Below are positions 3,801 to 36,800 of a stretch of DNA of 64,000 nucleotides, piece by piece. The DNA is from Astropecten irregularis (taxonomy: Eukaryota > Echinodermata > Asteroidea > Paxillosida > Astropectinidae). The stretch lies in NCBI GenBank assembly GCA_963971285.1, contig OZ020256.1, positions 4,156,501 to 4,220,500 on the forward strand, in the 5' to 3' direction. The position numbers were made by a program, and so were the translations under genes. Every line of letters begins with the position of its first letter. The stretch's first letter is position 1. The notes beneath the pieces are model-generated. The model had not been told where the DNA came from. It did no database searches and saw only the letters and a list, made by a program, of their open reading frames with translations.

Positions 3801-6800
3801 CGATTAGTAACTTGAGAGATTGTTGAAAGTGGGAGACAGTTTTCTGAGCCCCCATCCATAAAATGAAAAGATGTTTGAATGATTTTCAACTGCAGACGTG
3901 CAGAGAATGTGATTTATGCAGTGATGTATATGACATTTTGTCTCGCCCCCCCCCAAAAAAAAAGTCATTTTAAAGAAGTCATAGTGGAAGCGAGTGTTAG
4001 AAGAAGGGTCTAGCCACCCCAAAATATTGGGTCTTTTATCCCCCCCCCAAAAAAAAATGTCTCTTCAAGCCCCCCAAAAATATTGGCTCTTGAACCGCAC
4101 CTGTGTTGCCTGCAACTGGTGCTTTTGTTCTTTCTTATTTTCTTTTTTATACTTTTTGTCATAGCTTAGCAAAACAGTTTCTTAAAAATGGATCTAGTTT
4201 TGTTTTTGTTTTTTGGGGGCAAAATCAGGAAGCTGATTGTTTCATGCTAGACAATGCTAGTGTAATTTTGGGGGTGTTACTTAATTCTTGAACTTGATGT
4301 ACTTTGTCCAATCTAGCATATAAGGCTTGGACGCGGACAGACGTGTCACGTGAATGGAGTCAAGGTTGCCCTGCCCGTTACACTGGACGGAATCAACATC
4401 ACACTAAGCGGCATGAATATGGTGGGTACTGGTGAATGCATGTTGGCCAATGGCACATTAATGTGATCAAATTGGGAAGAGGTTTAGGCTCAGGCTCCAG
4501 CTCCGACAACCATATGCTGAAACTATAGCTGAAGCTCTGTTTTCTTTTTTGATACCCGTTATTTTAGAAGGTATATTCATAAAATTTAGCCTGAGTCTGA
4601 GCCAGAGACTCTGTTTCGTAGCACCTTGATACGAGACCTAACACCCTGATACGAGACCTAGCACCCTGATACGAGACCTAGCACCCTGATACGAGACCTA
4701 GCACCCTAATACGAGACCAAGCACCCTGATACGAGACCTAGCACACTGATACGAGACCTAGCACCCTGATACGAGACCTAGCACCCTGATACGAGACCTA
4801 GCACCCTGAAACGAGACCTAACACCCTGATACGAGACCAAGCACCCTGATACGAGACCTAGCACCCTGATACGAGACCTAACACCCTGATACGAGACCTA
4901 ACACCCTGATACGAGACCTAGCACCCTGATACGAGACCTAGCACCCAAATACCAGACCTAGCACCCTGATACGAGACCTAGCACCCTGAAACGAGACCTA
5001 ACACCCTGATACGAGACCAAGCACCCTGATACGAGACCTAACACCCTGATACGAGACCTAGCACCCTGATACGAGACCTAGCACCCTGATACGAGACCTA
5101 GCACCCTGATACATGACCTAGCACCCTGATATGAGACCTAGCACCCTGATACGAGACCTAGCACCCTGATACGAGACCTGGCACCCTGATACGAGACCTA
5201 GCACCCTGATACGAGACCTTGCACCCAAATACCAGACCTAACACCCTGATACCAGACCTGGCACCCTGATACGAGACCTAGCACCCAAATACCAGACCTA
5301 GCACCCTGATACAAGACCTAGCACCCTGATACTAGACCTAACACCCTGATACAAGACCTAGCACCCTGATACGATACCTAGCACCCTGATACGAGACCTA
5401 GCACCCTGATACAAGACCTAGCACCCTGATACGAGACCTAGCACCCTGATACGAGACCAAGCACCCTGATACGAGACCAAGCACCCTGATACGAGACCAA
5501 GCACCCTGATACGAGACCAAGCACCCTGATACGAGACCAAGCACCCTGATACGAGACCTAGCACCCTGATACGAGACCTAGCACCCTGATACGAGACCTA
5601 GCACCCTGATACAAGACCTAGCACCCTGATACGAGACCTAGCACCCTGATACAAGACCAAGCACCCTGATACGAGACCAAGCACCCTGATACGAGACCAA
5701 GCACCCTGATACGAGACCTAACACCCTGATGCGAGACCTAGCACCCTGATACGAGACCAAGCACCCTGATACGAGACCAAGCACCCTGATACGAGACCTA
5801 ACACCCTGATGCGAGACCTAGCACCCTGATACGAGACCTAGCACCCTGATACAAGACCTAGCACCCTGATGCGAGACCTAGCACCCTGATGCGAGACCTA
5901 GCACCTTTATATGAGACCCTACATTATAACAAGAAAGGTCCATTGGCTTTGACTTACCAGATCTTGAAGTCGGACATCGACCTGAAGGTTGTCTACGATG
6001 GATGGTACTTGGCCACGGTCACAGTTGGACCACGTTATAGCGACGAATTGTGTGGAATCTGTGGCGACTATGATCGTTCCTATAGGAATGACTACTATCC
6101 CGAGGGAAGACGGGTACGTGATGTTCAGAGTCACTGCTAGGTTTTGTTGATTATTATACCAGCTGAGTCGAACATTTAGATTGTTCTCAATCTTGTATTG
6201 TAAGATCTTTGTAGTTTTTCTTGTCATTGTACAAAATGCTTTTGTCTGGTTTTGTATTGTTATTGGTAGGTCTCCGCTTAACAATCTTAGGCTTTTTTGG
6301 AGACATCCATTCACACACATAGTTCTGAGAATAATACATGTATATCTGCACTTGCGTTTGTAAAACGTAAGAAAAGAAGATTTTGAATGAATGAATGCAT
6401 GAAATTGGTTGGTTGAGAATGTTATTTGTCCATGAATATGTTTCATATTGTTTTGCCATTCTCTGCTATTGTTTTCTGGCGTGAAGTTGACGGGAACCGG
6501 AATCGGCAACCTTTACCGGGTTAAAAACGAGGCCTGTGCCATACCAGTAGAACCTGAATATGAGAGTGACGGCGATGCCTGTAGCTTTGTCAGCGCAGAA
6601 ATACGTGCGAGAGCTTACGCATTCTGCGATCGACTGTTGGAAGGTAAGTCAAGTTTCAATTATGGTACGCTTTAATAACCAGGAAAAAAATATCATGTGT
6701 GGTAGATTGTGGTATGCAGGTGGGTAAGGGTTAAGAAGAATTTATTTGTATTGCATTGGATTTAAAGGGATGGTACAGAACTGGTTTTTGCGACAAAACC

Positions 6801-9800
6801 GTTGCTGACAGTGAAAGCACATTATGCAATCCATCATATACCTTAACTCACAAACCTGTAGAAGTTTGAGGTCAATCAGCCATCTGGGTCACGAGAAAAT
6901 AGTGAAAACCTGTTTACACATTTCAACGATATGATGCTTTCATAATAAAACGCTTCGAAGCGATTTATTCCAATCGGAAAATAGTTTCATTTATTTCTCA
7001 ACGAGTATGGCATTTCAGACAAAGACATTTCATTGGATGTTTTCTCCTATCATCACTATTATACTGTGTAAGTGTTATGTGAATCTGTGATCTTGAAGTG
7101 TATTTTGTCTTACCAATTTTGTACCATCCCTTTAAATAGAAGCCTAGTGTAAAAAAAAACAAAAATCATCAAGACTCAAGAGCAATCCAGGCTTGTCAGA
7201 TCTGATGGTAGGAATCCAAGCTAAGCATGACATTATATCAGCAGTATGGGATTTGTCATCTATATGAATGATTGGGCTAGTGCTTAAAGGCATTGCATAC
7301 GTTTGGTAATGACTCTGAAAATTTATGGCAATAAAAACTTACTTGGTGAGAAGTACAGCTGCTTTGGATAGTATAATGCATATTGAGAAACGTTCAATTC
7401 GAAGTACCGGGGTTATGGACAAATATGTCACTTTTTATCTCCAAAAATTATGAATCTGAGAACCGTTATGGCCGTTACGCTTCTCAGCTATTGACTAACT
7501 GTTCTCTGGCGTGAAATAACCGCTCTAGTTTGTCGCCAAAATCTCAAAAACGCTACCACCTTTTGAATTGAAACTTTCACAGGTTAGTTTTATGGTATAT
7601 ATATACAATTATATTGGTTTGAAACAAACAGTAGGCTCAAATTACCAAACGTATGCAATCCCTTTAATAGGATGGCCTTGTCAAGACTGTTTCAGCTTTC
7701 TTGTCTTAAAGGTACTATCATACTTTGGTAGGAAACCAAAACAGAATTAGTCACAGGTTTACGTATAACTTACAGGGTATAAAGATGGACCTGTTACAAA
7801 TATAACCTTATAACTGTTCTGCCCGAAATGCTATATTTATCCAGAAATGAGTAAAACAAAATACCGAAAACAGTTCTGATCCCTGAGATCAAAACCTCAC
7901 AACTATTACAATTACCTTCAAATTTCCTGTAACAATTGCAATGTTTTTTTGCTGTTTTCTACTGTTTCTAAAGATCCATTGAACTGAAAATTTCACAGGC
8001 TTGTTTTTATTCCATGACAAATCAAATTATGAACAGACTGCCGCTGTTCTATCAACATTACCAAAGTATGGTACTACCTTAAAGTGGCATTCAAGCATCT
8101 CGGTTATCCTCCGGGGTGCATTATCCAAGAGGCTCTGCTTAATGATTACAGACTCTCTGACTCTCACTTTCTGCACATTCTGCATGTTCTACTAAATTAA
8201 TATAGGACCGCTGGAACCATGCAGACGTATTCTCAACATCCCGGTCTTCTTGAGAAGATGTCGGCACGACTCTTGCGCCTCCAAGATGGACCCAACAATT
8301 GCCTGTTTGCACCCGTTTGTGTTCTACAAGCTGTGCTTGCGTTACGGAGGAAGTCCGGAACCCTGGAGACGAGTTGATTATTGTCGTAAGCTGGATTCCT
8401 TGATGTAGGGGTTAGGGGGTGTCGACCATCAGGAGGTCGATTGTTAGGATTCTTTCATCTCGGCATCCAAACCCAGTCTTAATAATAATAATAATATAAT
8501 TTATAGAGCGCAGACAATTCCACTTACAAAGTGATCAAAGGCGCAAGAAGTCTTAGAAGCCGGGAGAGGTCCCATCCTCCCATCTGATCCCAACTTTGAC
8601 ATCGCCCAAAGGCATGATGAGAATTCATCTGAAGTGATACAATTGGGAAAAGAAATGAAAAAAGAGATCGTTCTAGATTAAACTAGAAAGATTTGAGGCT
8701 TTGCATGGTGACAACTGGTGTGTGGATCGGTTTTCAGGAAACACCATGTAATATTTGTTCCTACTTTCGCGCTTCTATTTCGTTCGCACTTCTCGTAAGG
8801 TCTCACATTAATCTAATGGATCACCACGAAACGAAGATGCCATTTGGCGTTTTAACTCCTGCTTTTCACGCTCGATGCTTATCTTTATACATCAGTTTTA
8901 TCGAACGGCGGTGGCTAGAATTATTTTTTTGCCATGAGTGCAATTCTTCAAACTTCCCAAACCCTGGCAGCACAAGTCATTAAAGCCATGATGTGTCATG
9001 CCTCCATTGAGTCCCATACACTGAGCGTAATAATAATAATAATATAATAATAATATAATAATTATAATAATTACCGATAATGGGTACTTAGGGAGACATT
9101 CCCATAGGGACGTGCACGCGACTTTACTTACCTTTTTCTTAACATCCTCCAAACCAAGGAACTTGAAACTGACATATGTTCATATTGAGAGCATTCTCTG
9201 TCTTCTATCAAAATATGGACATTAAAAATATGTCTTTAAGATGTAGAAATATTTTTGGGGAGACAACAAAATGTCTCCCTATTGACCGGTGTCTCCCAAA
9301 TGTTAACTTTCAGATGCTAACCTGTCTCCCTATTATGCAATTTAATAATACCATGATTTATAAAGCGCATTTGCCAATGGATACAATGTGCATCAATAGG
9401 AATGATCTGGAAAAACAGCAAATAAGTTGAAAACTAATGGAAGTGAAGAGAAAATAAGTGTGTTTTCAGATTACTCTTAAAGTTGTTGAGTGAGTGCATG
9501 CTATGCATATTGTGTGGGAGAGAGTTCCAGTATCGCGGACCAGCCATATCTTGTAATAAGTACCCATATGTGTTGCCGCACAAACTGCAATAAGAACAAC
9601 AACCGCAGACAATGAAACCAAAGGAAAATCCAATGTTTATCCGGTTTCTTTTGATTTCTTTTCATCTTTGTGATGCGATTTTTGTTTTGTTTTGTCGGGG
9701 TTTTTTTTCCCCACCGAAGCTGTCAACTGCACCCAAGGCTCTCACTACAGCCCAGCATCATCAGCCTGTCCGAAAACATGCGTGGACGTGATTCTCAACC

Positions 9801-12800: not shown

Positions 12801-15800
12801 GGTAGAAACATACTGTTTAACTGTTAACATACATAAAATGTTTTTGCCTGAAATGCTGTACTTATCCAGAAGAGAGTAGAATCAGTGACCAAAATTATTT
12901 TTGATCTTTTAAAGATCAAAAATAAAAGAGAAAAGACTCACAAAATAATGTGGCAGTTTTTCACTGTTTTTTCAAAAAGTGGGTACCGTATGGGACTGAA
13001 ATTTTCACAGATGACTGTTACTGTATCTGTCTTGATATTTTTGCCCATGAATCTTTGTTTCTTTGACAAAAAAACAAAGTATGATATTACATTTGAATAA
13101 GACAAATCATGCCGTAGGTTTGTTCCGTCTCATTCTTCATCGTGATGGCTTAGATTTGGTTAAAAGTATCAAGTTTTATCTGTCTCACTACTGTAGAAAA
13201 TTGAACTGAGCAAAGATCATAAGGTGACAGTCGACGGACTGGAAATTCTACCTCCCTTCAGGGTAGAGGACCTTGTGCATATCTACTACCTGAACGACAG
13301 AGTGGTAAGTTAATGCCAACTGACTGCTGTATTTGTTGTACCGGCAAAATTAAACATTGGATATTCATAAAAATGCAAGGAAATTTAATGGCAACCAAAA
13401 AAAAATTGGGTGGAAAAGAGAAAAAGATTATAAAAGGGAGGAAAAACTGGAATACTGGTCAGGTCCTGCCACTGAAACGCCAGGCTGGGCCTAGGAAACA
13501 GCTCATGACAATTGCAGAGCTGTATGGGGAGTTGCTTAGACTGAGTGACAAGATCAGGGAACGACGCTTGAGATTTGCCCGGCACTGCAGTAGGTGGAGT
13601 GAGGCGCTTGCAATACTCATCCTCTGGCAACCAATGGATACAGGAAACCTGGCAGACCAAAGCTAAGCTATAGACCGATCCGAAGGCATGAAATACTCTC
13701 CGCCATTACTGGTGTGTCCCCGCCCGCCTTTTGTCTGGCAACAAAAGAATTTATGCTCCGCCATACTCACTGGCTACGTTCGAGCGAGCTACTCGTATTA
13801 ACACGAGTATATTCCTGAGCGCTCGAACGGCTGGAGTAAGACACTCGTGTCAGCGAGAGTATACTCTCTAGATATGGGGAGTATACTCCTGCACCGGAGA
13901 GTATTGCGCGCGCATCATACCTGGAGTAACCGTTTGAACACAGCTTATAATTGCAGGGTGAACGTCCCATGATTAGGGGATGTACGCCCTGCAGTATAGA
14001 GTGCGGCGGACAGAAATCCTTTTGTTGCCGGACAAAATACGGGCGGGGACACACCAGTAATGGCGGGTGTTTTTTACCTCTACGTTCGTGCCGTCAGATC
14101 AGTGTATAATGATATCTTGAAGATAGACACAGTACTCGAGGCAACAGATCTGTGGACTGCAATGCAGGACAGGACCCTATGGAAAGCCATCACAGTTCGG
14201 GAACACCACCCTAATGAACTACTATTAACTAACTACGCCTAGGCTTTGCTTTGGCTGTTTCTGTAGTCCCTAGCTTTAAACAGTGGACCAGCTGCATTGA
14301 TTCATTGCTTTGTCCCGAGTCCCATTTAATACAGTCTTCGAAACATGAAGCTGGCTTACCGGAGCCTCCCAGCTGTCGTTTGATATTTTCCATTAATGAT
14401 TAGCATCATAATTATGAATGCTGTTTCTTTTCTGTAGGTTGTGTCAACAAACTTCAGCCTGGAGGTTTCGTGGGACGGAGTGCATTTTGTCTTGGTCAGG
14501 CTGGCAGAGGAGTTTTTTAATCAGACGTGTGGCCTGTGTGGAGACATGCAGGGCTCCATTGATCAGGATCTGTCCACCAGGTTGGGCTCAAGAGTAAGTT
14601 GTGCTTAAGCAAAGAAACAAACAAGAAAATGGCCGCTGTTGGGTCGTCAGTCAGTTCACAGGCAAATCTGGGTTTGCCTTGTACTGGCTAACAGCACCAG
14701 TACGGTATTCCGGAGGTCGTTGGTTCGAATCCCACTCCAGTCAACTTTTCAATGACAAACACAATTCAAATGAAGTTGGTTATCCTGGAAAGGAAGTATT
14801 TGAGTCTTGGAGTTTCAGAAGGGTTGAAACTGATCCACTGTTCCTTGGATCGATGTACTCGTATATGCGCTCTCTCACACCTTTTTTGTCATTCCATGTG
14901 GCAGGAAGCGCTGTCTGAGTTTGGTGACATGTTCAAAGCTGACGCTGAGGAATGCGACTCGGTCACGGGACGTCGTCCGCCCGACGAATGCACTGCAGAA
15001 GCCCAGGAACTCGTCAAGCCAGTTTGCAATTTTATAAGTGACATCCGAGGTGAGCTCAAGACGAGATGGCGTGTAGCATTTTCGTTCATATGCCACGCTG
15101 CCAAACTTGGAGAAATGTATTAATACTTAAAGATATAATACATGATTGGTAAAAGTCACGGAACAGCACTCACACTTTGTCTAATCCAACATGTACATGA
15201 AATGATAAACCTGTGAAAATTTGAGCTCAATCGGACATCTGAGTCACAAGTAAATTAATAGCGAAAACCCAACTTAAATTTTCTTATAAAACATGAAGAA
15301 TGGTTTTGATCTTATTCCGAGATCAAAGCTGTTATCAGTCGTTGTTTTACAAATTTCAGGAATGCAGCATTTCAGGTGAAAATATTTTAATGTGTATTTT
15401 TCTACCAGTACCATCCTCATATTCTGGAAGTTGTTCGTAAATCTGTGAACATTTCTGTTTGGGTATATGTTACCTATCCTGTACTGTACCTTTAACATAT
15501 CTTTGTTCTGTTCTGTATCATGTCCATCTAGGGCCCTTCCGTCGATGTCTACAAAGTGTCCGCCAAATCATCTTCAACAATTGCAACTTTGATGGCTGTG
15601 CTCTGAGTCCGCATCTCAACTTCACCTGCCCGGCTTTCACCACCCTCGCCAAGATGTGCCAGCTCGTTGGTCTGCAAATCGACCCGTGGCGAACTGACGA
15701 TTTTTGCCGTAAGGAAAAACACTTGGATGTTAAGACCCAGGGCAAATTTCATCAAGCTGCTTAAGCACCGAAATTTGCTTAAGCACCCAGAACCTTTGTA

Positions 15801-18800
15801 AAATAAAATCAGTATGCCAGCCAAAACTCCTTGTGAATGTTATGCTCAGCAAACAACGGCCGAATAGAAAGTCAAAAGCAGTAAACATCACCTAAACATT
15901 TGGTTGGTTATCCTGTTTGATCAAGGAAGACTTTTCATACTTAAGCAAATTTTGTTCTTAAGCAGCTCTATGAAATTGACCCCAGGGTGCAGTTGACTGG
16001 TTAACCCCAGGGTGCAGTTGACTGGTTAAGAAAACTGCACAGATGGACTACATTTGAAATTCGTTAGCAGCTAGACATGCTAGTTCATTAAATTTAGATC
16101 GCTTGGCTAGATTTGGAGTTTGACGTTGTTTCATCATGCTTTCTCGTTTCTTCTGGGGTGGGTTGATCCTTATAGCCATGAGATGCCCCGAGAACTCAGA
16201 GTACGGGCTCTGTGTCAACCCCTGCCAGCGACGTTGCGGTCAGGAACAGAGGCCTGCCGGCTTTGTTTGCCCGTATCCCTGTGAGGAAGGCTGTCAGTGT
16301 AAGGAAGGCTACGTCCTGGACGCGGACAGGCGCTGCAAACGACTTGAGGAGTGCGGCTGCTTCGATAATGGCTACTACCACTTGGTGAGACTCCTCTTTG
16401 AAGTATTTTCAGCAAATCATTGGACCTATCGTTACCTGACTCGTCCACCAATTTAGCTACATACTGATCAACAGCCCAGAGGATCAACCTCAGACATGTC
16501 ATGCTTGAGCAAGTTTATATTTTCAGATTGTACTCAAACAGAGTACACCAAGGAACTATTGACATCCAAGGATATAAACTGGTGTCACTTCTTACATTGT
16601 CCTTGTTGGACTTAATCTTTGATAAAGTTGCTGCTACGGATTAAAACAATCTTGTGTCTATTTAGGTTATAAGGGAATAGATTTATGCTTAATTTTTGCA
16701 CTTAAAGGTACAGTACAGGATTGGTATTAACAGACCCAAACAAAAATTTTCACAAATTTACGTATAGCTTTCAGGATATGAAGATGGTGGTGGTAGAAAC
16801 ATACCGTTAAAATATTTTCAGCTGAAATGGTGTATTCATTCAGAAAAGTAAAACGACGGCCGAAAACAGTTTTGATCTTGGGGTGAGATCAAAACTCCTG
16901 TGAATAGATTTGGAAAAAACTGTGAGCGTTTTTCACTGTTTTTCTACAGTTTCTGATGATGATATGAGCTGAAAATTTCATTGGCTCGTTTTTATTCCAT
17001 TTATTTCAGAACTCGGAGGAATACTATCGGGAAGGATGCATGGAGAGATGCGAGTGTGAGGGAGGTGTTGTCACCTGTGAACCCGTAGAGTGCCACGAGA
17101 ACGCGACCTGCGGTGTAGATGACGGCGACTATGGCTGCTACTGTAATGAGGGATATATCGGCAATGGACGAGAGTGCGAGGGTAAGGCTTGGTCTCAGAT
17201 GAGAGCACTAGATGACGTGTCTCATTGTGATGTCCCCTGGTAGGATTTGAACCCCTATATCAGATGAGAGCGCTATATGACGTGTCTCATTGTGATGTCC
17301 CCTGGTGGGATTTGAACCCCTATATCAAATGAGAGTGCTAGATGACGTGTCTCATTGTGATGTCCCCTGGTAGGATTTGAACCCCTATATCAGATGAGAG
17401 AGCTAGATGAAGTGTCTCAATACAATGTCTGTCGGTGGGACTCAAACCACTGGTCCCCTTTTTTTAGACAAAGTGTCTCAACATATGAATGATAATACTA
17501 AGTCTCAATTTATATTTCTCCTCCTGCTAATCCCATCTCAGATGACCCCTGTGACCCCAATCCGTGTCAGAACGATGGCATATGCAAACCAGCCGAGGGT
17601 GAGTGGCCCTACAAGTGCACCTGTGTGGGCCACTGGAAGGGAAGTCACTGCGAAATGGGTAAGAAAATGGCTCGCCATGCCTACTCCGATGAAATATCTC
17701 TACACCTCAGAAATGTAAAGTTGATTCCAACATTATACAACTTTTTTTGCAAAGCTGAGTTAATGTCAGTGTCATTATAAAAGGTCAGTAGTACCAAAGT
17801 GCCCAGATAAATGCATAAAACCCACTGATTTAAAGGTATAAAACATGATTGGTAAAGGTCTGACAGCACTCATACTTTGTGTGGTCCAACATGTACATGA
17901 AATAATAAACCTGTAGAAATTTGAGCTCAATCGGACATCTGTGTTGTCACGAGAAAATAGCGAAAACGCGACACAGTTTTTCTTATAAAACATAAAGAAT
18001 GGTTTTGATCTTACCTCGAGATCAAAACGGTCTTTGACTAATTTCTGGATAAATACGCTATTACACGCGGAAGAATTTTGATGGTATGTTTCTACCTGCA
18101 CCATCTTCATACCCTGAAAGCTGTACTTAAATCTATGAACATTTCTGTTTGGGTATGTTACCAATCTTGTACTGTACCATTAACAGCGAACATTTTGCAC
18201 AGTCATATAAATTATTATAGGTAAATATATTCAGATGGGATACATAGAGTTTAAGACCTCGTTACACTTTTGAAAAACGACAGGGTACTACTGAAATGGT
18301 GGAATTATTCTCACTGAGATGAGCCGCAAAAATGCTGTACACAACACTCATTGTGCTATAGCTTTACTGCCTGTTGATATATGGCAGTAGGCTATGTATT
18401 TTTTAATTTTCAAAGATTAAACAAATATAAATTAATTTTGGTGATTTTTTTCTATGTATTTTGTTTTTGTCCTAAAATTCAGGTTACCAGGCCTGTTCGG
18501 TCAGCGGCCATACTCACTATGACAGATTTGACGGCTTTGTGTTTGATTTCTATGGCAACTGTTCGTACGTCCTCACCATGCCTTGCGTGGAGAGAGAGGA
18601 AGACATGTTTAAGATCATCCTGGAGAATGAGCCTGATGATGACATCCGAGGACTGCCCAACATCGAGGCTGTTCACGTCATGGTCAACGAAATGGTAGGA
18701 ATTAAGCCGTTTCCCCTAGCAAATATGCTACATTTCTTTTAATGAGACACAGCCTGAGCCTACCAGTGAAAAATGCTTTTGAATTAATGATTTTTTTAAT

Positions 18801-21800
18801 CGGTATTAAGAGGCAGAAAAAAATGGTCGATTTGCAAACACCATGACCATTGTAGTAAATAATTATCAAATAACACAACTTCTGGGAAAATGACTGGATG
18901 AATTCCAAGTCAATGAAAAATTAACAGAGAGAATTTGAGTGGTACTGTGTTCCGGGGGTCGCCGGTTCGAATCCTCGCTCCAGTAAAATTTTCTTTGTTC
19001 ACTTTTCAATGACCGGCTGGTCCTATGGAGTGGAACAAAAATTCCTTTACATTTCAGGGACGCACCATCTATCTCAGTTTTCAAGCAACTTCTCAAAACT
19101 GTCCTCTTTTCATCGTCTCCGTAGCCCTGCGCGGCTGCTCTTTCCTGTACAGCACTTTGATCTTGCTAAAGGCGCTATGTAAATGCCCTTGATTATTATT
19201 ATTATTGTAGTCAGGTTGCTTCTAAACTGCTACCCAACAAAAAAACTCAAAACTTTCTGTTTTGCATTTCTGTAAGAAATGTTTGAGATATTTTCCGTGT
19301 TTTTAGATATGAATTATCGTTTGTTTGTTTGTTTTGTTTTTCCTCAGCGCATCACTCTGAAGGATGACATGGAGTTTGAGGTGAACGGTGAAGAGATGCG
19401 CTTTCCTTTCCGTCGGCCCGGACTGGTCATCGATCAGTATGGATGGTTCATGGTACGTGGACCCTTTTGGAGTTTTGTTTCGTGGTCTGATGAGACAACT
19501 ACAATTACCATCACAGAATGCTCTCCGTTCACGCAGCAGGAAATAGCATTGTGTCCATGGCTGGATTTCACCAAACACTAAGATTAATCTTAAGATGAGT
19601 TGTTCAGTATCACCATAGTGATTTGTATTGTGACATCACACGTTGCTTAGCAATTCAGATGAATTCACACTTAAGATCAATCTTAGTGCTTCATGAAATC
19701 GACCCCAGATTACCTAGCATCTGCTGAAAAAAATGATTTTATTTAAACATGTTTAAAATGAGCACTGTGCAGATGATTCTTGAGGAAAAAGCTAACAGGC
19801 TGTTTAAAGTGGGATTCGAACCCCGTCAGTGCCCACACTCAGCTGCCTAGCTGAAAAAAAAAACATTGTTCTAAATATTGGGAAAATGTGAAATATGTAC
19901 CCTGGCCAAAAAAAAAATAAATAAAAATTAGCCAAGTACCAGTTACAAACTATATATTTTACACACAATTCTGGTTGGTAACCTGTATACGTAAATTTAC
20001 ATGCTTTATAGAAGATATGTCTGTTGGCTGTTGGTTTGCAGCCAGACAACCAAGCTCACCATTGTCATTTGGTGAATTTGAATTCTGTCCAGCAGCAGGC
20101 CTTGTTGGAATATTGTAGTATCTAGATGACAACTCAACGTTTGATTCAGTTCTTGGTCTTTGTCCCATTGTTCAAACTTTATACCAATTCTCTGTTTGTC
20201 TCTACATTCCACCTTCAGAAAGTGACCACTGATTTCGGTCTGGTTGTGGCATGGAACGGGGAAGACCTTGTAGAAGTGACCCTTCCGTCCGACTTCCGAG
20301 CGAGTACGTGCGGTGTCTGCGGCGATATCAGCAATCCCGTGGAGGGCTTTGGAGAAGTACGACAGACTTTTTTGTTTGTTTTTCTTGATTTGTCGAAGAG
20401 AATCCCAGTTATCAGTAATATCATTCATCTGAGATATCACATACTGAAGTGCAATTTGAACTCTGTGATCGTACTGGCACTCTACCAGCTTACCTTCCCA
20501 GCCCAATGTTGGCGGTCTTGCTAATTGCCAGGGACAATTTCATAGAGCCGCTTAAGCACCAAAATTTGCTTAAGCACCAAAAACCTTGGTAATCAAAATC
20601 AGTATGCCAGCCAAAACTCCATGTGAATGTTATGCTCAGCAAACAATGGTCGAATACAAGTCAAAAGCAGTAAACATCATATGAAAATTTGGTGGGTAAT
20701 CCTGTTTGATCAAGGAAGACTTTTCATGCTTACGCAAATTTTGTGCTTAAGCAGCTCTATGAAATTGGCCACATGTTATCTTTGTTTTGGTTGCCACTGA
20801 GGAACCCTGAAACTGCACACGCATGCTGCTGTAGCCTATTAAGGATGCCTTGATAACTTGATATAAAACTTTGATAACTTACTTAGGACTTTTCCAAGTT
20901 TAAGAGGACTGATCCGATGATTTTTTTTGGGATTCCAACAGAGCGAGAATGCTAACCAGTATGCCTGGGCCTGGGTTGACAAACCTGAGAATTGCCATAC
21001 TTCACCTGAACCATGGCAGCCCTGCAAGGAAAGAGCCTGCAACGTTCAACCTGCAGTGCAACTATGCTCCATGATCATGGCACCAAGAGGTACGTGTACG
21101 TGTATGTATGTCCACCTGAGAGATCTTGATCCTCACCTGTGGAACTATGACCAGGGCCCTGGTATTGCCTGTCTTACTCTACGGTTGTGAGACATGGATC
21201 TTGACTGGGGGCCTGGGGAGACGACTCAATGTCTTTGGTACTGGGTCTCTGAGGAGGATCCTTGGGTATACCGCTGGTCGGACCATGTGTCTAATGAGAG
21301 GTAATACTCGGGGAGAGTCAGATGAGACCTATTACCTGCATGATACGTGAGCGCCAGATGCGACTGTACGGTCATGTGGCTAGATTCCCTGCAAACGATC
21401 CTGCCAGGCAAATTCCCTCTATGAGAGAACCTACTGGTAGGACTCACCCGGTAGGGTATCCGCTTGACACATGGTTGCGTCAGATGAATCTGCTGCGGCA
21501 GCGCATGCTCCCACTGATTGATTCATTGTGGTGTTTTTTTTACAGGGTTCTTATATTATATTTGCTATCAGAGGGGTGATAGGCAGAATGTTGAGTATGT
21601 CTAATCATGGCAACCTCATTTTTAATCAGATATCCATTGTTTCATGAGCTAGTGATTCGAGAGTCATTTTTAATAATCTGTTGGCCTGTCTGCATATGGT
21701 ACTGTATAACAGATGCTTGTCCTCCCGGCTGGACGGCAGTCGGCCTCAACGACCTCCACTACATGTGCTACTTCGTCCGGCCCGCCGAGGAAGGCCTGAC

Positions 21801-24800
21801 CTTCGAGGCGGCCAATCTGGAGTGCCAGCGCCGGGGCGGTCGTCTTTACGACCCGGCACTGGAGGAGCAAGACCAACGGTTGCGGAACTGGACCGCAGGG
21901 ACGTTTGAAGGCAACTACTGGCTGGACTGCTCTGATGAAGATGAGGAGAACTCATGGCGCTGCAGACGGGAGTCGCACCGCTGGTCCACCGAGGAAGTCT
22001 CCGGATTTTGGTGTAAGTACTGCTATTAACTGGTGGTGGCCTCCCATGATGGCACTTTACTCTTCACTTCATTCGAAGGACTGAAAAAAAAGACAGGACT
22101 GCCTCAGCATGAGTCACAAATGCCATTTTGAATACTGAAAAGCCTTACCAAAAAATGGAAATTGTCCAAACCATGTGTGACCTGGGGCCGATTTCACTAA
22201 CGCTTTGCGATCATCGTAAAGCCCAAATCCATCGCTAAACGGAAAATTCCTACACAAAGTAGCGATGGATTTTCCGTTTAGCGATGGATTTGGGCTTTAG
22301 CGATGATTGCAAAGCGTTAGTGAAATGGGCCCCTGGCATTGCTAAAGAAGTGGACTATAAAATCACCAGGGGTCGATTTCATCATCAATCGTAGGACTTA
22401 TGATGCATTGCAGCCCTACGTAAGATACGATGGGTTATCCTTCATAACTCCAGTTGCAATCGATCATAGGGCTTCATGAAATCAACCTCTGGCTTCACTA
22501 ACCTGGCCAGCTATTCTTTAAACAAAACATCTTATATTGAAACTGTCCTAGACTTAAACAGACAAGAGAACAGTAAAAGCAAAAATATCATACATACATT
22601 GCCCACCGTCCAACATCTGGTTCTGCCCGACTTTATTATTATTTTTATTTATGGTAATGACACCAAGGATTCCTCAAAAGTGACCAAGGCACTGTAGCTC
22701 GCAAGCCTGATGAAACCTGTTATGGAAAGATGATGAGAAGAAGATACAGTTTTAGAGGTGGGAGGAAAACCCCAGAGTAATATTCTGGGCAAAACCCACG
22801 GAATCAGGCAGGGACTGAAAACCCAATCCACTTGTGAACCGAGCCGGACTTGAACCCGGTACACAGAGGTGAAAGGTGGGGAAAGAACCGCTATGCCAAC
22901 CTGACTCCCCCTACGCCAACCTGACTCCCCCCAACCTAACTTGCTCCTCTTCTTCAGTCTTTTCCTTCGTTTTCTTGTCTTTCCTGAACAGCGTGGGACG
23001 CCATGGAGCCAAACAACGGCCCGTTCCCCACCATCGAGGAGGATTGCATCATGGTGTTTGATGAAAATCGCTGGAGGACTGTACCCTGCACGGCCTTAGC
23101 CACTAAACTGATCTGCCAGATCGACGTCCGGATTCCTCATCTTGGTGAGACGTCATTCAAAAGAGGAACCATGATTCTGCCAATATTTGCGCTCAATGAA
23201 TCTTTAGTAAACATCAAAGCCCTGAAACAATAAGAGGTCGCTGCTTGTGATGATACCTTGTGAATAATCTCTGTTTGGGGAAAAGATTTAATCCCTAAAA
23301 GTATCTGACTTGTTAACTTGATGTGCTGGCCGTTTTGCTCTTCCAGTTGAAATGTTGACTCAATCAGCAAGTCATTATCCTTTCAGAAATGCACCATTTT
23401 CCCTGGAAAGAATTTATTCACATTGTGTGACCAGAAAGCTTTCGATCATAGTTGAAATCTAAGTTTATACGCTGGTTTATGATAATATTAGCATTTTCAC
23501 TTGTAACGGGAAACAGAAGAATGTGCCCTGATATGCCAAAGTTGAACAAAAATCTCATTTTGTTTGATTTTTTCAGCTCCCTTTAAGGAGTGCCACGAGC
23601 TTGTTTCCCCGAAGCCGTACTTCCAGGGTTGCATGAATGACGTCTGCGCAGCACTACCTTCCCGCGACTGGTTGTGTTCGGCTCTGAGAGCATACGCTGA
23701 TGTCTGCCGACTGGCCGGTGCAAAGGTTGACCTGTGGCAATCCAGAGATCTATGCCGTAAGTTAACGGGGTGATTGTCCGACAGCTGGTCTTGAATTCAG
23801 ACACATGGACTATCATTATCTTGCCTGTCAGTGCCAGGAAATTCATAGAGCAGCTTAAGCACAAAAACTGCTTGAGCATGAAAAGTCTTCATTGATCAAA
23901 CAGGATTGCCAACCAAATTATCAATTGATTTGACTGCTTCTGACTTATATTCGGCCATTTACAGACATGTGTTTTGACTGGCATACTGATTTTATTCAAA
24001 AATTGTTTTGGTGCTTAAGCAAATTTTGGTGCTTAAGCAGCTCTATGAAATTGGCTCCAGGTGAAAACCCTCAAACTATTGATGTTCAAAGACAATTTTA
24101 TCTGGTCTAATTCCCCCATTGCCATTCATTTTATTTGTATTTCTTTCCCTTTTAAAAGTCTTGCCCATGATTTGGCATCTGATGCCGTGTCTTTGATTTT
24201 CCTTTGGTTTTGCACGAGTTGTGATTCTATAATGTGATTACCTTACTGAGGATGCCCTTGCTGTAAGAGGTGCATTGATAAGATTCAATGTAGACTTTCA
24301 GCTCTTATATAGGATTCTTGCAATTCTTGATTCTTCTGATTTTTCAGCCCCGTCCTGCCCAGAGGGAGCGTCGTTCACCCGCTGTGCCAGCCCCTGCCCG
24401 CCAACCTGCGCCCACCGTGATCGCGCCTGTGCCCTGCCATGCAAGCCCGGGTGCAAGTGCAACGATGGGCTGGTCCTACAGGGCGATAAATGCGTGCGCA
24501 GAGATGAGTGTGGTTGCTTTGCGGAAAGCTTGGGCCAGTTCATTAAGGTAGAATTGAAACAACTAGTTATAGAAGCTTCCATCCTCTCTAGATTTCCACG
24601 TTTTTATCTGTCTTTCCAGTTCTAAAGTTGCATTATTCTTTTCTTTCTTTTCCTTATATTTCCTGCTTAGCTTTTTTAAAAAATTATCTTCCTTTTTTGT
24701 TTAATCTTGTGGGAATTGTCATTCCTGTATGTTTCCATCCGTTTTTGAACATTTTTGAACAAGTACAAAACATTAGGCATATCACCATTTCAATTTGTTT

Positions 24801-27800
24801 TATTTTCCAAAAAGTTCAGTCAATACTTGTTATCTCAGAAATAAAAATCCACACAACTTTAATTGCAACCACCACTGTGGTTTTGAATATGTCCTTAAAA
24901 CTTAAAACTTAAGACTTCCTTGCGACCCTTGCATTTTAATCTGTACAATTCTAAGATAAAATGAGTGGTCAAGCAGTTTGTCGCTGGCCATGATTTCAGA
25001 TGTTATGTCATAGCTTTTGCTTATATTACAGGAGAGCTGTGTGAATCTGTTTTAAATACAAATCTGCCAGATATTTCTGAAGTTGTAAGTTTTCTTCCAT
25101 TATTGGGGTGAATCAAAAAGCTAATAGGGTTGAAGTCTTCTAGATTAAATAGAGAAGGTCTTCTCCTCTTTGTTCCCTGTTCAGGCGGGTGAGAGGTATT
25201 TCAAGCCCAACTGCACTGAGTCTTGCTCTTGCATGTACGGCGGCATGATTCAGTGTCATGAGGTCAACTGCACTGAGAACGGCCAGTGTGACACTGAGGA
25301 GAGCGGTCTCAGCTACGAATGCAGCTGTGAAGACGGCTTCGCTTTTGATGGAAACAAATGCGCACGTGAGTCTTTGAGGCCAAATCGGCCCCAGGGGCCA
25401 ATTACATATAGAGCTGCGTAAGCACAAAATTTGCTTAAGCATGAAAAGTCTTAATTGTTTAATAAACAGGATTACCAACCAAATTTTCATGTCATGTTTA
25501 CTGCTTTTGATTTGAGTCGGCTGTTGTTTGCTGAACATAACATTCACCATGAGTTTTGGCTGGCATACTGATTTTATTTAGCAAGGTTTGTTGCTTAAGC
25601 AAATTTTGGTGCTTAAGCATCTCTGAAATTGGCCCCAGAAGAGACCGTTGAGACAAATATGGGAAAGAAACACCGGCAGCCAAAATGTCGACACCAGGGT
25701 GAAAATTAGCATGGATTTCAAACAAAGAAGGATTCACCGATTCAGAAATATTTCTGTGTTTGCCTTTTCATAAAGTGGGTAAAGAGGACTGCAATTACAA
25801 ATGATGGCCTTCATTTTGAATCTTGAGGCAGTAGCTTTCCAACACCCCCCCTCCCCAGTACCTCTATCTCAAAAAAAGTGTTGTTTTTCCCCAAAAAATT
25901 TATCTAGTTTTTCTTCTGACAATCTTTACAACAATTTTGTGTTTGTCTTTTACAAAGTGTTTACCACCAGCCCTATTTCTGGTGCTGATGTTGCATTTTT
26001 TTTTTTTTTGATGGTTTATGTTTTGGTTTCCTTCAGCCGATGCGTGTGCGGCGTACAATGTACAATGTGAAAATGGCGGAGTTTGCAGAGCCCGGGGCCT
26101 CAGCGAATATAGTTGCCTTTGTCAATTTGGCTGGGCAGGACGGCACTGCGAAGAAGGTAAAAGACAACAATGTTTATTTTTATTATTCTGATCTATTTCC
26201 ACCCTAACCCACCTCAATCCTCCAAAATCCTTCTGGTAGTTTTGGAGGATTTCGGAGGATTCAGGATATAATGTCGTTTTCAAGTGAGGACCACTGGAGG
26301 AGTGGCAAGGATTCAGGATAAACACATTTTTTGAGGTAGGGCCACTGAAGGATTCTGAAGGATTCAGGTACCTCTCATTTTGAGTATAAGTGAGATCACT
26401 GGAGGATTTTGGAAGATTCAGGATGAACGCAGTTTTTAAAGTGTGACCATTGGAGGATTGTGGAGTATTCAGGAGGGTACACAGTGAAATGCCCCTAGGG
26501 GGTTAGGGTTAAAACAAAAGATCATCAAATAACCACAAGGATATTGACTGGAGGGGGATTCGAACCGTCGGCATCCTGAATACCGTATAAGCTCTCTACC
26601 AACTATCCAGCCCTATATTGGTGGTGACCCTTATTTTATTGTCCCAATTTTCTTTGTTCGTTTGGCAGTCAGTTCACTTTTCAATGAAAAAAAAATGTCA
26701 GCAGTCATTACAGTCAGTGTCTATAGACTTGAAATCCTTAAAATTATCTTATTCTTTTAACGGTCATTAAGGGTCAGCAGCTTTAATGAAGCATAGAGTT
26801 GGCAAAAACTTTTTTTTAGCAGTGATAGCATCACAGTTTGTTATGTGACCTACTAATGTGTTGTTAGGCTGTACATATCTTGCCAAATGAGGATTATAGG
26901 GCTTTTCTCACTCTAGTTCCTTTTTACCTGTCAAAATTACCGGGTCCCACCCGGTCCAAATTTCAAGAGGGGCCAATCATGCTCTGCGTTTACTCAACAA
27001 GTTCAAGTCTTTGTTCAAGCCACCACTCTCAACATACATCGACATTCTCACCAGGGATCACCAGTAGAGGTAGTTTCAATCCGGGATGAATGCTCTACAC
27101 TGGTTGACACCTCGTCACATTGACGCAGGTCAGATAAGTATGTAACCAAGAGATTTTTGAAAAAGGCAGGCCTTGAATTAGGTTCTGAAAGGGGCAAGGC
27201 CACTTCTCCATTGCATGGGGCACTTCCACTGGAAAATCATAATGTCTATGGAAACATTTGAAGGGGGCACGAAGGCCAAGAACAAGGGCAACGAAGGCTA
27301 TGGCCTCCTTGGCCTCCGTTAAATTCAAGGTCTGAAAATGGCCTCTCTCTCTCTCACTCTCTGTCTCTTCACCGTTTTTCAGAAATGGCCCGGTGCAGCG
27401 TTCAAGGGTACCATCACTACCGTACGTTCGACAAGCAACCTTACAACTTCAACGGGGATTGTGTCTACCATCTTGCTCACCACTGCGGGGAGGACGTAGA
27501 AGAGCCACAGTTCAAGATCCTGGAGAAGAACCAGAGGCATCCTCTACAGAACAACGTCACCTCAACATTGTGGCTAGAGATTCACCTTTCGGACATGGTA
27601 AGGAACTTAATCAGGCTGCCCGATTTCACGAATCTCTTAAGATCTTAAATCGTGAATCAATCTTAATTGCTAAGCATGATGTCACAATACAAATCACTAT
27701 TGTAAAAAATGACAAGACAAAGTTATAAAGTTTGATCAAAGTGTTTGGTGAAATCCACCTCTGCTCCCCATCAGCTAAACTTGTTGGATTTGAACCTATT

Positions 27801-30800
27801 GCTTTGCAATGGATGTCATGGAAAGTCAAACATGACATTGACCGGACTCCTTTTCGTCTCTGGATGTAGGTTATCCGATTGATGCAAGGCCATCGGGTCC
27901 TGGTGAATGGCACGAGGAGGAATCTACCCGTCAATCTTCCGGGTGGTCGCATACGGTTACTCGGAAACAGTGTGGTATGTGTGGTAGTAATTGGTCTCTA
28001 AAGAACATGTTTAATAATAGTCTTATGTCAGGGAGCTGCCCAAAGGGTTGCTTTGTTTGAGCTCATTCTGTTGTGAGTTTAAAACTCCTCAAAAAACAGT
28101 TCTGCGACTCAAATTTGTGGGATGATTTCTTTTTTGTTCCTGATCTATGAACAGTAAAACTGGTGTCATTAGAAAGCGTGATTATCCCTCTTTACAAGGA
28201 TGTGTCATTTATTATCCTAATGTAATCATGGAATGTACAGTCCTGATAAATAGGCAGCAATGTCAAAAATGAAATGTTGCAAAATTCATTGTTTTCAGTA
28301 GTGAATTCCCAATCGAGGATGTACTGAGTTTGATGAATGGTGTTAATTTAATGTGCTGATGCATGAAAGCACGGTCCAAACATGGTGTATTCTCATTTGC
28401 ATTTTGCAACATCTCACTTCTGACTTTGCCCTTTATTCAGGCGAAATGCACATTCCATGATTACATAATCACAACAGATGGCACATAATTGTAAAGAGGA
28501 ATAATTACGCTTTCCAATGATACCAGTTTCACCGTTCATAGATCAGTAACATAAAAGATATCATCCCTCAAACTTGAGTTGTAGAACGTTTTTCAGGAGG
28601 TTATGTTTTATTTGAGTAAATTTATGAAGCAGTCTCCTCTCAACTGTAGGCTTATTATCGATAAGCCTAAAGCTTATCTGTTGTAACAAACATTCTTGCA
28701 AACCTGGAGCCGATTTCATAAAACTTACGACACGTCGCAGAGTTAAGACGCATCCTTTCTCTATGGACTCACTGCATAGATGCGACGCGTCACAGCTATA
28801 GACGCGTCGCAACTGGAGTTGCGACGCGTCGCAGAGCTTTATGAAATGGGCCCCAGGAATCTGGTAATCTGGTTAATAAATGAAGCATTTTTGTCTGCAA
28901 ACGCAAGGAAATTGTCATCATTATCATCAGAGCAACTATCATTTTGTTGTACTGCATTCCTGCAGGTTCTGCACACTATGTTTGGCTTGGGGATAAAATG
29001 GGACGGCCGCAGTTTCACAGACATCATCATTCCGGAGGTCTTCAAGAACCAGACCTGTGGCCTGTGCGGCAATTACGATGGGGAACATGACAATGACCTT
29101 CGTATCCGAGACGGAGAGCTGGTGAGTCCCTAGCAAAGATTCCCTCGACTCATTCTGACCAAAACAAAAAAGAAGAAAGAAACAATTTGATCAATGTTCT
29201 CCTAAACTAAGATTTCAAATACAATTAATAAAAACTTCTGCAAACTGCTCATCAGCCAAAATGACCTGAAATATATCAAATGCTTGGAGTTAGGAGGGCC
29301 TGATGTGTTTTGATCCTAGCAGGATCTTTCTCAAAGGCTAAATGACACAAAGATTTCAAATCTTCAACCCCCCCCCCCCAAACCTGGTGGAATGGACTGT
29401 TCCGGCTTTGCTCTTAAGCGTTGCTCTTTTTGTGTGTAGATTTCAACTCGGAGCTTCAGCTTTTTTCTACACCTTCTCTGTACAAAAGTATCAGAACTTT
29501 TAAATTTAAGATTTTTTGGGGTGTTTTCAGATTTTATTTTTGTGTGGCCACTCACATCCCTAATATCCTATGTGACCGAGTTTGACCGAGGTCATGGACG
29601 ACGACTGCAATAGCGGTGCGCACTTGCGCTAAAAATAGCACAGAACCTCAGACAAACATTGCAACCGGCCATGCAAACGTGTGGCGAGTGGGGGTATGTG
29701 TGCGCATGCATGCATCGTGTGATGTCATTACTGCGGAACGCTATTGGTCAATGCACACAGTTTGATTGACAGGCCGGAAGAGTCCATTGGCATTGACCCT
29801 AATTGTTCCGACAAAAAAATTGTGATGTAATTTGTATGTTTTGTTCATGTTTGTAGCTTTCACTATTTGCTGTTTTTTTGTCTGTTTCTGTTATTTTTAG
29901 GCGGCAAGTGCAGCTGAATTCGGAAACAGCTGGGTGTACAATGATGAAGACTGTAAACCAGACAATGGAGACTTGCCTCCTTTCGATTGTGGCGCCCTCT
30001 TAGGAATAGTGCACAGTTTCTGTAATAATCTACAGAAACCCGTAGTAGGCATGTATTCCATTTGACATTCTTTCTTTTTTTCCATGCAATTGTCCAATAA
30101 AGACCACTCAGGAAGGTGACATTAAATATTTCATTTCATATTTTGTTTGTCTTCAATCGTGGCCTAATTGCCAAATTCCAAATGACAATTACAAAACTCA
30201 AAAAGGGAGAAGAAAATAGTTTCTACACACAAAATGAATTATTACAAAAGAGGTTATTCATGTGACGTCATCATCTTCTTGTTGGCCATCAAGCACATCG
30301 ATTGCACACGTGTTAACAATAAGCTTCCGTGCAAACGCAACATGCAGTGCAGTGATCAAACATACAGTGTAGTCAGTACGGCTAGTGCTATTGTCGTACT
30401 AGAAACCTTGGAGGAATGTCCACAGGCTTTGATGGAAAATGAAGAACCTCTATGGGGTTAGTGTGGAGAAACCAGTCCCTCACACTAAACAAGACTGTTG
30501 GTTGCAAATGGTATGAATTTCAAAGGTACAAATTGGACAGAAAGAGGGTATACCTATAGTCCACAGCAAAGTAGTTCATGCTTCTTTACCCCTATGGTGT
30601 AAAGCAACCAGTCCTTCACATTGAAACAAGACTGGTAGTCTCCTCCCAGATACTACGACTGGAAGAGGTGCCTGGTCCACAGCATTTAGTCTAATGTGTT
30701 TCATTTTTTAATTGATTTCTTGCAGCGGTATGTGGACGGGGCGGTTTTCTCATTGACAACTGTCTTGCGGACGTGTGTCGTCTGGGCAATGCCAGGTTTG

Positions 30801-33800: not shown

Positions 33801-36800
33801 TCACACGGGTGCCAAGAGGGCCTCTTGGTCACTCGGGTGCCAAGAGGCCCTCTTTGTTACTCGGGTGCCATGCAAGAGGCCCTCTTGGTCACTCGGGTGC
33901 CAAGAGGCGCTTTATCAGATTGATGTATTGTCATCCTAGTTTATACTGAGGTGCCAATGGTCTACTTTCTCAACTTGGTAACAAAGATGCCAATGTCTAT
34001 GTTGTCAGCTTGGTAACCAGTGGCGTATTTAGGGAAAACGGCGCCTGGGGCAAGCGCAAAAATTACGCCCCTAATTCCAATTTCTGATGCCAATGAAAAA
34101 AAAAAGATTTCAGACAATTTGAAATTTCAAATTGGTATCTTGCTTTGTTTGTTCATTGGATTAGATTTTTCAATAATTTCACTGACAATACAGCTACCTT
34201 TTGTTCTTTTTTTTTTTAGGATTTCTAATAGCCTAAACCTTGTTTTGCATCATTGCTTCAATTTGTTCTTTTCAGAACTAATTTTAATTGAGAGTTCAAC
34301 CATTCTATCCTTGTGATGCACTGCATGGTATTTTTTATTTTTTACAGGTTTTGGGTCTTCACCAGCATAAACAGCTCTCCCTCAACGGGTCAAGAGTGTC
34401 TGCTCCTGTTGTTGTGAAGGATAGATTCATTGTACAGACAGGCACACACGTGGTAAGTATACGTCCTTCACATCAATGGACCTTATCGAGGACAGCGCAA
34501 AACTGGCTGTGCGCAAAGCACTCTGGGAAACGCAGGGTTGTTAGGGCTGGCGCTGAGTGCATAAAACGTATGGACATGAAATTTCAACTATAAACAAGTA
34601 CTCAACTTTATACCGCTGGAACAAGTGACTCGACAGTAACATTCCATGGACCGTTGTGCAGCATCGTTATGTATAACAACTCAAAGCAAGGCTTTCTTCT
34701 AGGAAAATCTAGACAACTTTAAACTTCGCGAGCCGGCAGCTATACGAATATACGCGTGTCGACGGGTGTGGTAAAACTTTTAAACCCATGTTACCCACTG
34801 TCCTTTGCGCGCGCGCGCACAGCGCGGAAAACAGGCTATCTTCGATAAGGTCCATGTCCTTAAGCAAGGCACATTGCCCTTGATGGCTTCTCTCCAGGGA
34901 AGGTTGATTTGGCTCAGTAAGCCTTTTGCGACTTAAATCCGAATAAATGTCTGGCACACAGACTTCTTTCATTGCATATAAACACTCCAGGTTGAATTTC
35001 CCAGATTCAAGACTCTATGACACATGATGCAGTGCTAGCTATTGCATAGCGATACCTATCTCTGGAATGGACTGGTTCCTTTGTACCATTCTTATCCATT
35101 ATGAACAGTGCATTGGTGCAAGACGTCTGTCATGTACCTCAGCTGCTGCAGTGATCCTTATTTTGAATTTGTAATTCTCACATGTATGAATCCTGCATTT
35201 CCTTGGTCCTTCTAGGTTCTGAAATCGACAATTGGCGTGACGTTACGATGGAACGGTTACAGCGATGTGGACGTCTGGGTGGCCTCCAACAGCGGATTCA
35301 ATCTGTGTGGACTCTGCGGCAACACAGACGGAAATCCTCTGAACATTCTTGACGAAACACCAGACAGACAGAGGGTGGGTCCCTTCATACACCCAGCAGA
35401 AAGCCTACCCACCCCTAAAAAAAACCTGCTTTGCACAAAATTTGCTAACCATGAAATTTCTGTCTTAATTAATTAAAAACAGGATTATCAACCAAATTTC
35501 CATGTATTTGTGATTGTTCTTTGGCTGTTGTTTGCTGACCATGAATATCAAATGGAATTTTTTAATGGTGGTTTTTGGCCCCAGAACCTAGTGAAAGACT
35601 ACTCGGTCCTCTGGGGTTGATTTCACAAAACACTAAGATTGATATCAACTGCTAAGCAAAGTGTGATGTCATGAATCAAATCACCCTGGTGATATAGATA
35701 GTTTTGGCAAAATGCCAGGATCAATTTGTAATTTTTGTCGCAGACTGAAACGTAAAACCTTCTTTGATTTTGAATTTCCCCTTTGCGTACAGGTGCTTAA
35801 CTCCGTTGCTTTTGCCAATACTTGGGCTGAGAATCCCGAGACCTGCAAGGACCGCGGAACCGATGTGGAGAACTCGTGCAATGGAGACATCGAGGTTGCA
35901 GCTGCCAGTGTGCTGTGTAACGTCATCCTTAACCAAGCTGGTAATGTATATGACCAACCTTTTATCCCCGTTTCCATTTCTGTTGAACCAGACCCAATTC
36001 CATCGAATCCGTTACGGTCTATTTTTGTGCATTTCAAGTCTCTACTTCCACCCCCTGTCTGTCTGTTTTATCCAGGACCATTTGGGCGCTGCATAGCACA
36101 CGTGGACCCAGAGCCCTTCTACACACTCTGTCGGTTTAGCGTCTGTGCCTCTGGACAGCTCACCAATTATTCCACCATTTGCTCCAGCCTTCATTTACTA
36201 GAGAAGGCATGCCGGGACAGATCCATTGAAGTCGGTCAATGGAGACATCCCAAATTCTGCGGTACGTTTCAAAGTCACATTTGTCTCTTTTTAAATTTTC
36301 TTTCTTTACAAATTTTCCAGCATGACCGTCATTGGAATGCATAAAAATGAAACTTTTTTTTTTAAAGTGAGAAAAATAAACGACGGCAATTAGATTTTCA
36401 CCGAATAACCACAAGGGGAAACTGACTGGATTTTGAGTCATCGAAAAGTGAACCAAGACAAATTGACTGGAGATGAGTTTGAACCAGCGACCTCCAGAAC
36501 ACCGTACCAGCGCTCTTACCAAATGAGCTATTCAGCCCTACTTTGGCGGTGTCCCTAATAGACTTGTTTGGCTATCTAAAGTATTAGACATTCCACTGGC
36601 ATTACGCTCTAAGATGTACTGAGAGAGGCCATCTTCCAAATTTTACATCCTCTCTCATTTTCAAACATTTCCCTTCCCCGAATGATTATTAGATTCCTCC
36701 TCCAATTTTGTATCGGGGACAGTGTTTTGCGAATCAGTTTTTGGACAATTATGAATCTGACAAATAGTCCATTCAGCACATAGTGCAGCGGTTTGTACCA

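Follow-up and report, generated by a model that had tools for sequence, protein, structure and literature searches.

Is a complete C-type lectin domain (CTLD) really coded inside a C8 domain? The question is raised by a 64,000-nt stretch of the genome of the sea star Astropecten irregularis (assembly GCA_963971285.1, contig OZ020256.1, positions 4,156,501 to 4,220,500, forward strand; hereafter the window), which holds much of a giant gene for a cell-surface protein, built from repeats of a VWD-C8-TIL-TILa-EGF module, seven of them in the window. A preliminary description of this DNA proposed that, in module 3, a full CTLD of about 150 residues is coded by two exons inside the intron that splits C8. 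Our analysis confirmed that the nesting is real at DNA level, since two exons with 151 codons and a Pfam Lectin_C match lie in a phase-1 intron of a VWD-C8-TIL-TILa-EGF module. At that level the architecture is real and unusual.

The exon bounds, phases and acceptors were inferred from direct reading of the DNA sequence between window positions 20500 and 24200. The exons concerned are as follows (a slash marks the splice site):

Exon 23, 20942..21089, + strand: end of VWD, pre-C8 segment and C8 Cys1; donor gag/GTACGT; ends in phase 1.
Exon 24, 21713..22012, + strand: N-terminal two thirds of the CTLD; acceptor ACAG/, donor ggt/GTAAGT; phase 1 at both ends.
Exon 25, 22992..23144, + strand: C-terminal third of the CTLD; acceptor ACAG/, donor ttg/GTGAGA; phase 1 at both ends.
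Exon 26, 23577..23756, + strand: C8 from Pfam position ~8 to the end; acceptor TTTTCAG/, donor gcc/GTAAGT.

Exons 24 and 25 together comprise 453 nt (300 + 153), exactly 151 codons, and phase 1 fits all four junctions (23-24, 24-25, 25-26 and 23-26), so the frame is kept whether the pair is included or skipped. As the preliminary description had claimed, the insert enters and leaves in phase 1 (the internal junction is also in phase 1), and the equal-phase (1-1) flanking introns make the pair symmetric in the sense used for exon shuffling. Exon 25 reads WDAMEPNN...EEDC...WRTVPC...LICQ.

The direct splice of exons 23 and 26 matches Pfam C8 (PF08742) with 68.3 bits (E = 7.3e-19, positions 2-67, cut-off 23.7). 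With exons 24-25 included, the C8 match is 61.4 bits (E = 1e-16) with its start moved to position 8, and the same join matches Lectin_C (PF00059, E = 7.6e-8), so that the domain search of the spliced protein that had been suggested returned both domains. The insert by itself scores 36.0 bits against Lectin_C (E = 1.3e-8, cut-off 22.6). A local CTLD model was built from nine sequences, taken from nine of the 18 loci tried (L011-L028) and excluding the window copy; it gave the insert 55.1 bits, compared with a maximum of 10.2 among 1000 shuffles. Eight cysteines are present in the insert, which was aligned by eye with the local WIDC...W.C CTLD subfamily (W-I/L-D-C and W-x-C). Joined as a whole, module 3 shows VWD followed by C8 and TIL (VWD 2e-24, C8 2.5e-16, TIL 8.9e-11, TILa 8.2e-9). 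Other CTLDs of the genome are 26-39% identical to the insert (79 others among the matches listed, 150 of 320 candidates scored). Because these matches are no closer than that, an origin by recent transposition of some other CTLD in the genome was rejected.

Exon 23 contributes approximately the first 8 of the 68 Pfam C8 positions, while exon 26 covers about 60 of them, with six cysteines invariant in six aligned modules. The preliminary description had assigned the first half of C8 to exon 23 and the second to exon 26; this has to be corrected to an unequal split. The insertion point is between C8 Cys1 and Cys2, after ~8 positions, and therefore near the N-terminal edge of C8 rather than in the middle. 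Thus, of the suggested shuffling into the middle of a folded domain, the shuffling is supported by the symmetric phase 1-1 CTLD pair inside a C8-splitting intron, but the position is not. The Cys1-Cys2 spacing is 10-14 residues in modules 1, 2, 3 (without the insert), 5, 6 and 7, and 163 residues in module 3 with the insert, where C8 is no longer one continuous segment. Relative to FCGBP, MUC2 and VWF chains, the insertion falls between the cysteines of ..C-x-I-L-x-P-x-G-P-F-x-x-C-H.., and no insertion was found there in the FCGBP, MUC2 and VWF alignments (five of 27 matched sequences viewed). The C8 disulfides of VWF, for whose pairing no source was found in the literature passages, we take to be C1060-C1084 and C1071-C1111; if so, the insert lies within the loop between Cys1 and Cys3. 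The N and C termini of a CTLD lie close together.

The intron that houses the insert is shared. The six other modules join their C8 parts (C8a and C8b) over a phase-1 intron, as first described, five of them with GT donors and module 4 through a GC donor:

Module 1, 6643..8206, + strand: C8a/C8b intron, phase 1, no CTLD found; bounds given by hand as the last base of C8a and the first base of C8b.
Module 2, 15049..15532, + strand: C8a/C8b intron at the equivalent place, phase 1, no CTLD found.
Module 4, 30048..30726, + strand: C8a/C8b intron, phase 1, probable GC-AG, in a divergent C8; no CTLD found; read by eye.
Module 5, 35940..36076, + strand: C8a/C8b intron at the equivalent place, phase 1, no CTLD found.
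Module 6, 43726..44423, + strand: C8a/C8b intron at the equivalent place, phase 1, no CTLD found.
Module 7, 53046..53622, + strand: C8a/C8b intron, phase 1, with the acceptor shifted upstream by two codons relative to Cys2; no CTLD found.

Phase-1 GT donors follow C8 Cys1 in modules 1, 2, 3, 5, 6 and 7, and module 4 requires the GC donor at 30049 (read by eye). The C8 of module 4 (window 29900-30900) is divergent and is not among the listed genome-wide Pfam C8 matches. A survey was made of 31 C8 rows from the window and 18 10-kb loci, which comprise the upstream part of the gene, 10 kb downstream of it, and C8 clusters on contigs C10, C12 and C23; weak or partial matches were removed, and module 4 was not detected. 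In 25 of the 31 rows (22 distinct sequences besides module 3, many from one tandem array on C10), the Cys2 codon is preceded at a distance of exactly 14 nt by an AG in phase 1, which suggests that the cassette entered a shared intron. In module 7 the AG is 20 nt away, and in the C23 gene two rows have no AG at the 14-nt position; a further two from that gene and one from an upstream module, three in all, were off-pattern and left unscored. For a number of C8 places beyond these loci (e.g., on C16, C19 and C20), a single open frame is matched already from profile position 1 or 2, and the shared intron may be absent there. However, module 3 likewise starts at position 2 in the genome-wide C8 scan, because its intron reads CLIFS in frame directly before exon 26, so such starts can mislead.

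To score coding potential, a codon model was derived from 49 gene segments (2699 codons), with exons 24-25 left out. Exon 24 scored 0.396 per codon, compared with a gene-segment mean of 0.32, and outscored every one of 679 windows of its length that are free of stops and lie outside annotated segments (best 0.20; these control windows may contain unannotated exons). Exon 25 scored 0.226, which is inside the gene-segment range. Codon use is therefore good for exon 24 and, for exon 25, no more than compatible. Taken with the reading frame and the splice junctions, this is consistent with coding exons. The introns around exon 24 contain transposon-like sequences. Intron 24 holds a foldback resembling a miniature inverted-repeat transposable element (window 22181-22336; 83% complementarity between the 47-nt arms, and perfect inner arms of 31 nt), and intron 23 holds broken frames resembling, by eye, the reverse transcriptase of a retrotransposon without long terminal repeats (window 21120-21576), two pieces of which had no Pfam match. 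The latter remnant, just upstream of exon 24, could bear on the arrival of the CTLD exons.

As far as the DNA sequence allows, exon shuffling appears to be the best explanation, with the shared phase-1 intron in a tolerant C8 loop as the point of entry; such shuffling is expected to leave an entire CTLD in a phase 1-1 exon pair within the C8-splitting intron. A two-exon CTLD cassette with symmetric phase 1 would have settled in the shared C8 intron of module 3, and splicing would add it, with the frame kept, between Cys1 and Cys2, so that at least some transcripts would yield a protein with a CTLD growing out of C8. We consider it probable, with some confidence, that the cassette occupies the shared intron and that the CTLD is spliced into this segment in at least some transcripts. 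C8 might still close, from Cys1 to its third cysteine as in the presumed C1060-C1084 pair of VWF, leaving the CTLD outside, and the closeness of the CTLD termini would help this closure. Several results weigh against this explanation. Lectin_C was not listed in the Pfam scan of the whole 578-residue module 3 join, for which the HMMER prefilter is our guess as the cause; with filters off, the local CTLD model gave this join 51.4 bits (best stretch 50.1). The codon score of exon 25 was exceeded by 61 of 7765 open windows, and by 95 on synonymous choice alone. The acceptor of exon 24 is also weak: with a matrix trained on 29 sites, it scored -3.6 and ranked 78th among the 135 AG sites of the region, and only one of the 29 training sites was lower.

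The last point leads to the main rival, a serious one, in which exons 24-25 are an optional cassette, mostly skipped and included in some tissues, giving two forms of the protein with and without the CTLD. The acceptors of exons 25 and 26 rank sixth and first among the 135 AG sites, so a weak site at exon 24 and the top-ranked site at exon 26 make skipping plausible; the 453 nt with symmetric phases would permit it, and the skipped product would carry an ordinary in-frame C8 (MAPRAPFKEC, E = 7.3e-19). It is for these reasons that optional splicing is the main rival. However, strength in a matrix from 29 sites predicts splicing poorly, and the donors of exons 24 and 25 are good by eye. We hold mostly skipped exons to be quite possible, at somewhat below even chances, and this reading overlaps with the favored one, which needs inclusion in some transcripts only. 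For constitutive inclusion of the CTLD exons, the weak exon 24 acceptor argues somewhat against it. A constitutive nested fold, in which a Cys1-Cys3 disulfide closes C8 over an extruded CTLD and the Cys1-Cys2 loop, which this phase-1 intron interrupts in many of the genome's VWD-C8 genes, is a docking site for foreign domains, is put forward only tentatively, as something we would expect in about one case of three.

Exons 24-25 might also be a dead relic, decaying and never spliced in, as the weak exon 24 acceptor and the transposon-like debris around exon 24 could indicate; yet 151 codons have stayed free of stops and frameshifts, the CTLD cysteines are kept even though the other listed matches (79) are only 26-39% identical, and the codon score of exon 24 is strong, so we think this unlikely. 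Slightly less likely still is that a separate gene or unrelated transcript, starting or ending in the intron, owns the CTLD exons. The very many CTLD places in the genome (1281 candidates, 150 scored) speak for it, but the pair is in phase 1 at both ends, and the consensus donor that closes exon 25 is in the phase required by exon 26. Moreover, no start or signal-peptide exon was noticed in intron 23, where no systematic search was made, and many of the 79 other listed matches span most of the domain in one frame, unlike the pair, although that listing came from an exon-by-exon search biased to single-frame copies. An assembly artefact, with the CTLD exons misplaced by the assembler, is very improbable: nothing was found in its favor, the locus lies in an 18.8 Mb contig, only one near-identical match occurs among those listed in the assembly, and strand and phase are correct.

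The same nesting was looked for elsewhere in the genome. With CTLD models that included or excluded the window copy, only exons 24 and 25 were found at E < 0.5 in 6288 open segments drawn from the window and the 18 10-kb loci, and the next-best segment had E = 0.54 with the window-free model. C8 loci on C16, C17, C19, C24 and two on C20 were outside this model search; none of the CTLD matches listed (150 and 81) lies inside them, but the 150-match list is also without the window's own split CTLD, so a similar split copy would be missed. The genome has at least 57 C8 places (80 candidates scored), and the absence of a second nested copy has been shown for part of the C8 loci. The count of 1281 CTLD candidate places genome-wide (150 scored) also indicates a very large CTLD expansion. 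Separately, one locus on C10 (L036, 27080001-27090000) carries a tandem array with three identically scoring C8 copies, which suggests recent amplification within one gene.

What would the nested CTLD do? Sugar-binding C-type lectins carry the motifs EPN or QPD and WND at Ca site 2. The insert keeps EPN as well as the E that precedes the following cysteine, but WND reads WRT, with N and D replaced by R and T, so the motif pair is incomplete; by eye, all nine local CTLD relatives keep the D of WND. Classical Ca-dependent sugar binding at site 2 is therefore doubtful, and the earlier statement that C8 displays a lectin is unproven in this respect. Protein or other ligands are possible. Most likely, we infer, the CTLD serves a mucin- or zonadhesin-like adhesive or barrier protein as an extra head for ligand binding or cross-linking. 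Exon shuffling usually adds domains in tandem and less commonly inserts one into a domain locked by disulfides; the locus marks the Cys1-Cys2 loop of C8 as a tolerant insertion point. Because this loop is tied to the shared intron, sites at which to look for further nestings are predicted. Were the constitutive nested fold true, exon shuffling would have a general port in C8 loops, where other domains could be present in related species. As a natural template, the arrangement might also help in grafting binding domains onto adhesive or mucin-like proteins.

The rest of module 3 is made of the following exons:

18483..18694, + strand: VWD exon a, from sequence reading (VWD PF00094, E = 2e-24 on the joined module).
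19348..19452, + strand: VWD exon b, from sequence reading and the Pfam scan of the joined module.
20219..20356, + strand: VWD exon c, with the motif CGVCGD.
24348..24547, + strand: TIL exon (TIL, E = 8.9e-11).
25185..25365, + strand: TILa/EGF-like exon (TILa, E = 8.2e-9).
26037..26156, + strand: EGF exon (EGF, E = 1.3e-4).

Upstream of the window (loci L029-L031), there are three further C8 copies, a CUB domain (E = 2.7e-7) and, by eye, TIL and EGF repeats. The part of the gene in the window ends with CUB (E = 3.2e-9), a VWC match below the cut-off and, by eye, a transmembrane segment near 63.2 kb. Tandem repeats were noticed at window 51270-51880, reading WARRPNIL in one frame and probably intronic, and at 3050-3400 of L031, reading GHCLDDP. 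Downstream of the gene (L032, 8540-9807), open frames resemble by eye a kynurenine/aminotransferase-type gene.

A search for COX1 gave some observations on the assembly itself. Contig C168 looks mitochondrial. In mitochondrial COX1, five conserved Asn positions have AAA and seven conserved Ser positions have AGA, pointing to code 9, which is common to echinoderms and flatworms. The COX1 on C131 has no stops in the standard code and looks bacterial (symbiont or contaminant), and that at C25 9951047, with 7 TGA, looks like a nuclear mitochondrial insert.

Zonadhesin, a candidate relative of the host gene, has N-terminal MAM domains and mucin repeats as its hallmark. The D assemblies of FCGBP, MUC2 and VWF (VWD-C8-TIL-E) have the C8 family in common with the host gene (the best PDB chains include 8rde, 8r0t, 7a5o and 7zwh) and, in the alignments viewed, are without an insertion at the point used in module 3. 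The passages on mammalian and fish zonadhesin describe repeated VWD, EGF, a transmembrane segment and a short cytoplasmic part, like the host gene, together with MAM domains (PMC1325057), a paper whose text has 0 occurrences of the word lectin. Passages of PMC10880436, PMC11933400, PMC6739602 and PMC9169620 do not describe a CTLD inside C8. In the titles, abstract openings and passages covered in the open PMC literature, no CTLD nested in C8 was found, only proteins with CTLD and VWD-C8-TIL in tandem, which agrees with the earlier remark that no zonadhesin, FCGBP, tectorin or mucin is known with such nesting. The closest in composition are adhesive proteins. According to the passages available, Mlig-ap1 and other ap1 adhesion proteins of Macrostomum combine CTLD with VWD, C8, TIL and EGF (PMC6410801, PMC8621496), but in a tandem order, with VWD, C8 and TIL coming after the CTLD and C8 not enclosing it (PMC8621496). 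The limpet protein P-vulgata_1 is listed with two vWFD, a C-type lectin-like domain and six EGF, and nesting is not described in that passage (PMC7333891). Among echinoderms, the footprint protein Sfp1 of Asterias rubens, compared here by description only, is an adhesive with VWD, C8 and an EGF-like domain that, by contrast, carries galactose-binding lectin domains (PMC6410801, in the passages seen).

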